Assembly: GCF_028331445.1 (NCBI RefSeq)
Contig: NZ_JAQMHX010000001.1
Location: 372,001 to 436,000 of the forward strand
Source: Candidatus Phyllobacterium onerii
Lineage (GTDB): Bacteria; Pseudomonadota; Alphaproteobacteria; Rhizobiales; Rhizobiaceae
DNA: 64,000 nt
Reading direction: 5' to 3'
Part shown: piece by piece, positions 42,815-44,433 of the stretch
Position numbering within the stretch: the stretch's first letter is position 1
Layout: each line of letters begins with the position of its first letter
Made by a program: the position numbers and the translations under genes
The notes under the pieces: generated by a model
Database searches by the model: none
What the model was told of the DNA's origin: nothing
What the model saw: only the letters and a program-made list of their open reading frames with translations

Positions 42815-42982
42815 GAAGACCCCCTCCCTGCTGCTACGCAGCCTCCCTCCCCACAAGGGGGAGGGCAACAGCGCTTTATCCTGCAGCGCCTCCTGTTTGA
42901 CCTGTGCAGCATGACAGTTGCAACGGTCTCACCCTCCCCCTTGTGGGGAGGGAGGCTGCGTAGCAGCAGGGAGGGGTTCTTC
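42815..42982. repeat. Inverted repeat with 51-bp near-perfect arms
   Basis: The arms at 42815-42865 and 42932-42982 are reverse complements with a single mismatch. Each contains CCCTCCCTGCTGCTACGCAG and CCCCACAAGGGGGAGGG, a repeat core common in rhizobial and brucella intergenic DNA. The 66-bp spacer is unremarkable. It follows the DUF6101 gene by 44 bp and could also act as a transcription terminator. Confidence 0.85.
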
Positions 42983-43001
42983 TCATAACTTCCGTTATTC
43001 C

Positions 43002-43028
43002 AAAAAAAAATCGTGGCTGTTTATCCAC
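43002..43028 (-). terminator. Rho-independent terminator on the minus strand
   Basis: Read on the minus strand: CGTGG, 8-base loop, CCACG, then A and nine T (positions 43028 down to 43002). It ends either a long ubiA 3' untranslated region or a separate RNA (see 43002-43352). Confidence 0.7.
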
Positions 43029-43352
43029 GCCCCCAAAACCTCGCTTATTCTATTCCCGTCCTCTTCACGGGAACTGCTTCCGGAGCCGTTCGAAGTGGGG
43101 AGAGGAGCGGCGCCTCCGATGGCGGGTAACGGACCCGCTGTCCGGGGAAGTTCTGTCCAAGGGTTCCCCTGCCGGTACTACGACTGGCGTGTGCTGGACG
43201 AGCACTTCGAAAGGGGCTTTCGGCAACGGGTGAAGCAATTCACCCAACGTCAAGGCCTCCCAAGCGGAACGGACGGGATCAAAAGACGCCGGACGGGCGG
43301 TCTTCGGATCGCATTACTTATCTACAAAGACGCGCTTCGACGACCGCCCGTC
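43002..43352 (-). ncRNA. Candidate structured RNA downstream of ubiA
   Basis: On the minus strand the region shows a series of perfect stems: GACGGGCGGTC/GACCGCCCGTC (43292-43352), GGGTGAA/TTCACCC (43228-43245), a long-range stem around CGAAGTG/CACTTCG (43090-43210, with flanking AGCC/GGCT pairs), inside it GTGCT/AGCAC, GGGGAA/TTCCCC, GCGGGT/ACCCGC and GGAG/CTCC hairpins, then TTCCCGT/ACGGGAA and the terminator. A multibranched fold closed by a terminator points to a functional RNA. I recognise no known RNA family in it; RNase P, tmRNA and common riboswitch signatures are absent. The 5' end is undefined. It could also be a cluster of palindromic repeats or a 3' untranslated region of ubiA. 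Confidence 0.35.
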
Positions 43353-43437
43353 TTCCCAGCATGCAAGCAATGGCCAGGCGCGAAAGCGGGCGTGGCAAGG
43401 GGGAACCATACCCGGTTCTTTGAAATCAGGATGAAGC

Positions 43438-44433
43438 TCAGAACAGCGGCTTGACCACCGTCCACAAGCCACCAAACACGAGGCCGAGAAAGATCAACCA
43501 GCCAACCACGGTATTCGACTTGAACAGCCTGAGGCATTCGTTCGGGTTATCGATGTCGAGTGTCATGATCTGGCGATACATATGCGCGCCCGCAGCCAGC
43601 AGTCCGGCCACCGCGGGCATCGGAACCTCCGCCACGGCAAAGGCTCCAAGAAAGAGGGCCAATGCGCCGCCATAAAGCACGATCAGCGCTTCTCGGGTGC
43701 GGCTGCCGAACAGCCTGGCGGTTGAATGCACGCCAACCAGCGCGTCATCTTCCTTGTCCTGGTGGGCGTAGATCGTGTCATAGCCGATGACCCACAGGAT
43801 CGATCCTGCATAAAGCAGGACAGCTGGCCAGTCGAGCGAACCAAAGTGCGCGGACCATCCCACAAGCGCACCCCAGGAAAAGGCAAGTCCCAGAACAAGT
43901 TGTGGCCAGTTGGTTATTCGCTTCATGAAAGGATATACGGCGACGATAACCAATGATCCGATGGCAAGGAATACCGTGAACAGGTTGAACTGCACCACGA
44001 CTGCCAACCCCGCAAGTGCCTGCAGAACGAGAAAAACCTTCGCCTGTTTACGGGTCACCTGACCCGACGGAAGCGGCCGCGAACGCGTTCGTGCGACCTT
44101 GTTGTCGATATCTTCGTCGGCGAGGTCATTATAGGTGCAGCCAGCACCCCGCATGGCGATAGCGCCGATCAGAAAGAGCACCAAGTGATAGGGTGAAGGC
44201 AGCACCGACCAGAGCGGAGTGCCGACCTTCGCACCGGCAGCTGCCGCGAGGGCCGTCGCCCACCAGCACGGCCATAGCAGGAGCCACCAACCGATTGGCC
44301 GGTCCCAGCGTGCCAGCTGGGCATAGGGCCAAAGCCAGTTCGGCAATGTCCGGTAGACCCAATGACCTGACGGGGCATCGAAAACCCTGCCGCGGGCCTG
44401 CGTAGACTGGATAATGTCTTTTTCTGAAGTCAT
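43438..44433 (-). CDS. ubiA: 4-hydroxybenzoate polyprenyltransferase
   Basis: The 331-residue membrane protein has about eight to nine helices and both Asp-rich motifs of UbiA enzymes: NDLADEDIDNKVARTRSRPL (about 120-139) and DTIYAHQDKEDDAL (about 220). The N-terminus SEKDIIQSTQARGRVFDAPS is typical of rhizobial UbiA. It attaches the polyprenyl chain made by the synthase at 32.6 kb to 4-hydroxybenzoate in ubiquinone synthesis. Downstream lies the hairpin-rich region 43002-43352. The divergent gene is purD. Confidence 0.94.
   Translation of the reverse strand: MTSEKDIIQSTQARGRVFDAPSGHWVYRTLPNWLWPYAQLARWDRPIGWWLLLWPCWWATALAAAAGAKVGTPLWSVLPSPYHLVLFLIGAIAMRGAGCTYNDLADEDIDNKVARTRSRPLPSGQVTRKQAKVFLVLQALAGLAVVVQFNLFTVFLAIGSLVIVAVYPFMKRITNWPQLVLGLAFSWGALVGWSAHFGSLDWPAVLLYAGSILWVIGYDTIYAHQDKEDDALVGVHSTARLFGSRTREALIVLYGGALALFLGAFAVAEVPMPAVAGLLAAGAHMYRQIMTLDIDNPNECLRLFKSNTVVGWLIFLGLVFGGLWTVVKPLF

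Follow-up and report, generated by a model that had tools for sequence, protein, structure and literature searches.

Composition and occurrence of the element behind ubiA

In the window, as we call the whole 64,000-nucleotide stretch of Candidatus Phyllobacterium onerii DNA analysed here, ubiA occupies positions 43438-44433 of the minus strand (Pfam UbiA, 3.6e-59) and adjoins a hairpin-rich stretch in which the stems listed in the original prediction are present as described. A DNA search of the own genome, complemented by a second one with a longer query, identified positions ~43011-43400 as one of 11 copies, the other ten being 90-97% identical over most of their length; the same sequence is thus scattered as dispersed repeats, an outcome that the original prediction had itself named as speaking against a new structured RNA. 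Most probably, it belongs to a composite interspersed repeat of ~390-430 bp, specific to Phyllobacterium, that is structured, BOX-like and homogenised by gene conversion. It is neither a single RNA gene nor the 3' end of ubiA. Among the three options offered originally, a cluster of palindromic repeats comes closest in that the stretch is a repeat, but it is one composite element and not a set of small palindromes.

On the plus strand, the inferred strand of the fold, the element (43011-43400, with a type A centre) consists of end Y (~43044-43131, ~85 nt), an exchangeable centre (43138-43293, 156 nt) and end X (~43288-43395, ~110 nt). End Y as aligned (43044-43131) is predicted to form a long stem with arms at ~43058-43068 and ~43095-43108 and shorter stems inside it, and a small predicted hairpin, CGGGT/ACCCG (43123-43137), lies at its border with the centre in the alignments of both centre types, A and B. 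The predicted main hairpin of end X spans 43292-43352 (arms 43292-43302 and 43342-43352) and includes pairs made by the first two bases of the centre, and a predicted terminal hairpin follows at 43374-43395 (CCA/TGG with CGC/GCG here, CTC/GAG in other copies). Some copies only, as judged from alignments of the own copies and of 27 type A copies, have a long form with 25 further bases beyond X (43401-43425). The only terminal inverted repeat seen in the sequence of the window copy, CCACGCCC/GGGCGTGG, is short and imperfect, with CCACGCCC at 43388-43395 and its inverted copy at 43025-43032, and is altered in many copies.

Sequence searches assign the adjoining positions 42821-42976 to a second, separate dispersed family, a large inverted repeat with arms of ~50 bases that was the source of most of the 88 own-genome match rows obtained with the longer query; similar palindromes follow several of the other own copies. 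Past this palindrome in the window lies ACTTATCC, inverted to the GGATAAG of the element, which is found 90-344 bases downstream in 11 of 61 copies. As a partner of GGATAA it was rejected.

No Rfam or Pfam family was found to account for the element. Rfam returned no family at gathering score in the whole window, and sub-threshold matches inside the element had E-values of 3.7 to 6.9; the below-threshold matches to MIR1846 and mir-8927 are located on the neighbouring palindromic repeat. In 11 relative loci, seven Rfam matches at E <= 1 were obtained, none within an element. Near an element copy in genome G016, positions 1708-1864 of locus L187 carry a 6S RNA (74.8 bits, Rfam gathering score 46.4). 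ARAGORN found no tRNA or tmRNA gene in the window. The earlier view that no protein explains the stretch holds as far as tested, in that three overlapping open reading frames matched no Pfam family at E <= 0.1; copies differ by one-base indels, and a coding sequence was rejected. Phage origin was likewise rejected, there being no match in phages and none in viral contigs (searched with one exact pattern), as was plasmid origin, the five plasmid records matched being all from Phyllobacterium and all predicted to be non-mobilizable. In the open-licence literature searched with related terms, no report of such a Phyllobacterium family was found.

To describe the distribution we used R1, a covariance model of end X (108 positions), which matched 18 of 20 Phyllobacterium genomes and none of 19 genomes of other genera. 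At E <= 0.001 there were 2 to 43 matches per genome having any, and none in the Phyllobacterium genomes G004 and G005. The own genome had 22 matches passing 0.001 and 11 passing 1e-4. In a sample of the order, with stricter filters, the own genome was the only one matched among 297, again with 11 matches. A DNA search of the 39 genomes at E <= 0.001 gave matches in 19. Eighteen of these are among the 20 Phyllobacterium genomes, and the other is G027, a genome of another family with a weak match (1.2e-4) that R1 does not find. A pattern of the Y end retrieved 43 stretches from the genome collection, of which 39 were titled Phyllobacterium, three 'Rhizobiales bacterium' AFS078673 and one Sphingomonas. 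The last (Sphingomonas ursincola, L072) is a single exact pattern match outside Rhizobiales and possibly due to chance. The element is restricted to Phyllobacterium in the genomes searched.

Centres at shared sites and likeness of the copies

Within the clade of the window two centre types occur, A, which is 156 nt long here, and B, of 189 nt in G007; when they were compared at E <= 1, nothing but an inverted match of 10 bases was obtained. Hairpins common to A and B adjoin the borders of the exchanged part. Some pieces are common to the centres of G012 ('D') and G016 ('F'), and D has pieces in common with A as well. In G010, which has 43 R1 matches, the copies among the 12 stretches fetched have the same ends and yet another centre, except for L168 (below).

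For 63 fetched element loci we compared the flanks, joining loci if one flank matched over 350 bases; the comparison was made without the contig-end pieces L009, L011, L012, L027 and L030, without the weak G027 match L019 and without most copies of G003, G010-G012 and G014-G016, and L020 duplicates L031. Five loci stood alone, and the others formed 14 site groups, each represented in two or more genomes. Centre type was assigned in 57 of the 63 (37 A and 20 B, six not being assignable), and in 10 of the 14 shared site groups both types were present, A in some species and B in others. Behind ubiA, for example, A was found in the own genome and G014 and B in G006, G007, G008, G013 and G018, while in G009 a contig end truncates the copy and in G019 only a first piece is left. 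In this G019 locus (L102), the first part of the element is followed by a stretch that by eye looks like an insertion sequence. At the rnhA site, the own genome has A, G013 and G009 have B, and G007 has a decayed A-type remnant; in seven further genomes inspected by eye, the first 390 bases show no element. One site is common to G006 (A) and G016 (F), with flanks 82% and 85% identical. All 11 own copies have centre A, and when the own genome was searched with the B centre plus Y end, the 11 matches were to the shared part only.

At the site of L031, the own genome has a full copy, that of G009 runs into a contig end and the element of G008 looks decayed. In G007, G018, G013 and, in diverged form, G005 (L151, L152, L153 and L155), this site holds a piece of ~30 bases resembling the Y end and no other part of the element. 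These stubs suggested a recurrent excision scar; a scan of 19 genomes, weak in that the pattern catches 7 of the 11 own copies, found a lone stub only in G007 and G018 at this same site, and the idea was dropped. Locus L168 of G010 is without a centre and has a Y end nearer to type B (92.9% identity over 56 bases, compared with 74-89% for the others); it is perhaps an unconverted relic.

Identity was calculated, like the RNAalifold indices and the type A stem counts below, from the copies with recognisable borders, 35 of 37 of type A and 17 of 20 of type B. Type A copies of one genome were 0.933 identical on average (90 pairs), against 0.858 for the same site (39 pairs) and 0.831 for different sites (466 pairs) in different genomes; for type B the corresponding values were 0.960 (26 pairs), 0.905 (15 pairs) and 0.905 (95 pairs). 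Orthologous and non-orthologous means hardly differed between the own genome and G006 (0.815 and 0.808), G014 (0.785 and 0.785) or G013 (0.922 and 0.926), while orthologs were nearer in some close pairs, such as own-G007 (0.962 and 0.935) and own-G009 (0.934 and 0.914), and one G007-G018 ortholog reached 0.992 against 0.913. Across species, sharing a site thus adds little or nothing to the likeness of two copies, and copies within a genome are more alike; the family evolves in concert. This pattern fits gene conversion among sites, and as a source of the A/B distribution, exchange of whole sites between strains would be less simple than conversion.

Fold and strand of the conserved ends

The original prediction placed the fold on the minus strand. 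Folding of the whole stretch 42995-43437 gave z = -1.9 on minus (2 of 100 shuffles as good) and z = -3.5 on plus (0 of 100), a modest excess of folding on minus, the strand originally given, and a clearer one on plus. For the RNAalifold consensus structures of 35 type A copies, the folding indices of plus and minus were 0.675 and 0.471, with 10 and 4 pairs of compensatory type, respectively, and for those of 16 distinct type B copies 0.844 and 0.768, with 2 and 5 such pairs; a separate minus-strand fold of 27 type A copies had 6 pairs with compensatory types. Two stems were followed through the 35 type A copies. The 11-bp hairpin GACGGGCGGTC/GACCGCCCGTC is entirely Watson-Crick in 32 of them, whereas the long-range stem CGAAGTG/CACTTCG, although fully paired in 19 with G.U allowed, has one pair as A.C in 15 and belongs to some copies, not to the family.

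Wobble pairs also distinguish the strands. We counted them in 31 named pairs of the two ends, aligned over several types with 20 distinct rows for X and 26 for Y, and on plus the cells comprised 59 G.U and 8 A.C. The stems had been chosen after the plus fold was known, 14 of the G.U cells fall in one mostly-G.U pair of X, and a single pair of Y accounts for seven of the A.C cells. An RNA of the minus strand is expected to show the reverse pattern. At one pair of the main X hairpin, 7 of 20 distinct rows have G.U on plus, which is A.C on minus. Pairs predicted on plus only had 43 G.U and 5 A.C in type A and 26 and 2 in type B. Those predicted on minus only had 9 G.U and 19 A.C in type A, leaning towards minus, and 9 and 6 in type B, with no such lean; pairs predicted on both strands leaned slightly to plus (6 and 3 in A, 5 and 3 in B). 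From wobble polarity and consensus folding, the fold is probably on the plus strand of the window, and the strand originally given is probably wrong.

The compensatory changes sought in related copies were found in both ends, in pairs of the plus-strand fold. In end X, aligned from 21 of 24 stretches (alignment A2, leaving out L014, L016 with its long loop insert, and L176), 96.9% of cells were paired (94.0 in shuffled alignments) and covariation was 0.125, against a shuffled mean of 0.071 with 0 of 500 shuffles as high; three pairs were changed on both sides, a number reached by 19 of the 500, in 10 cells against 1.5. One such change, from G-C to U-A, occurs in the terminal hairpin in 3 of 20 distinct rows. 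In end Y (alignment A3, 26 of 33 stretches, leaving out a chance place in L016 together with L037, L146, L177, L180, L184 and L186), 89.4% of cells were paired (88.4 shuffled) and covariation was 0.148 (0.128 shuffled, 0 of 500 as high), and three pairs changed on both sides, which 89 of 500 shuffles reached. Slid versions of the X and Y structures gave far less pairing in both. Support for the predicted fold is thus good for end X and weaker for end Y. The compensatory changes, few at three per end and drawn from copies that are not independent, support a conserved structured nucleic acid, and the covarying stems together with their wobble polarity support its plus-strand form.

These results bear on the proposal of a stable non-coding RNA of the minus strand, or a long regulated 3' end of ubiA, terminating at the T-run. 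The stem with nine T on which it drew is present on minus at 43029-43012, as part of a terminator-like feature at 43002-43029, but this is not conserved in the family, a perfect hairpin of at least 5 bp followed by TTTT being found in 12 of 61 copies; each strand of the region holds one terminator-like site, two in all where shuffled sequence would give 0.9. Fold and wobble polarity favour plus, the sequence is a dispersed repeat whose copies neighbour varied genes in both orientations (mechanical ORF calls), and in 11 of 20 Phyllobacterium genomes, the own among the 20, no element lies in the first 530 bases behind ubiA (by eye). An intrinsic terminator or ubiA 3' UTR element was rejected on the same copies, and we regard a minus-strand RNA of either kind as very improbable.

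The polarity also weighs on a purely DNA-level element, in which single-stranded hairpins would be used by a transposase in the manner of REP or MITE sequences and the G.U excess would reflect strand-biased mutation. The window copy carries CCACGCCC, as a short inverted repeat, at each end, and palindromic repeats lie beside several own copies, both of which would suit such an element; polarity of 59 to 8 in the named stems, the lack of a recognised target duplication and the overlapping reading frames without a Pfam match speak against it, and we think it rather unlikely.

Proposed history and comparison with known systems

No clear target-site duplication and no clean gain were recognised when sites with and without the element were compared by eye, and past mobility is therefore something we infer, as are gene conversion as the mechanism, transcription and selection on an RNA. 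The family would once have been a non-autonomous mobile element and have spread as such, and its copies may now mostly stay put and overwrite one another by homologous recombination (gene conversion). The conserved ends would serve as homology arms, through which a new centre B may have replaced an old A at many fixed sites. A putative plus-strand transcript would fold into stacked hairpins, and selection on this fold, for upkeep of the element or for a role in the host, could explain the compensatory changes. A further-reaching reading, which we put forward only tentatively, is that of a structured RNA specific to the genus and encoded by many copies, dispersed over the genome at fixed sites, that undergo concerted evolution as rRNA genes do; gene conversion by way of the conserved end domains would have exchanged its entire central domain for an unrelated one at many of these sites.

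Unlikely in our judgement is a multi-copy family of functional RNA genes, each copy giving the same plus-strand RNA, conserved for dosage and evolving in concert as rRNA genes do, with the centre as an exchangeable functional domain. Covariation and polarity, shared positions and homogenisation would all agree with it, as would the number of R1 matches, 2 to 43 per genome in the 18 of 20 Phyllobacterium genomes having any. However, no sigma-70-like promoter, the one promoter type searched, was seen near the window copy, gene contexts are diverse, G004 and G005 have no match, and copies that are decayed or shortened are tolerated.

The usual way to follow small dispersed repeats is by their place of insertion, whereas here the places are fixed and the inner sequence is replaced and kept alike per genome. 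If conversion is the mechanism, as we propose, gene conversion among short (~400 bp) intergenic bacterial repeats becomes directly measurable, and the family would offer a natural experiment on which parts, such as the folded ends, conversion needs. If the plus-strand RNA is made, it would represent a family of RNAs that Rfam does not contain and in which one domain can be exchanged.

Among known systems, MITEs and Correia elements, as presented in PMC3049150, resemble the Phyllobacterium element in being small, non-autonomous-looking and structured; they have short inverted terminal repeats, to which the short repeat of the window copy, imperfect and altered in many copies, may correspond. 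MITEs are called AT-rich in the same text (PMC3049150), while the Phyllobacterium element is GC-rich and has long conserved structured ends, and no target duplication was recognised for it. The GC-rich element may also be set beside the RIME repeats of rhizobia. These are reportedly palindromes of ~100-130 bp. By its title, the likeness being limited to this, the description of Rhizobium-specific intergenic mosaic elements (Osteras et al. 1995, as an entry in PMC2873474) also concerns a rhizobial intergenic mosaic repeat. In the order sample, none of the other 296 genomes matched the Phyllobacterium family, which is set apart from RIME by description only.

The BOX elements of Streptococcus pneumoniae and S. 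suis, in which boxA and boxC surround a variable boxB, have predicted folds and are described as currently dormant (PMC3049150). They are composite interspersed repeats with conserved end modules, a variable middle and extensive predicted RNA secondary structure, and they cluster with other small repeats (PMC3049150), all of which recalls the element described here. Types A and B share their ends, and the element thus has the BOX-type trait of conserved ends round a variable middle. The two are likened by design alone, no tandem boxB-like array being seen in the ~400 bp of the Phyllobacterium element. Unlike in BOX, its centre is replaced by unrelated sequence at the same orthologous site, and its copies are alike within each genome.
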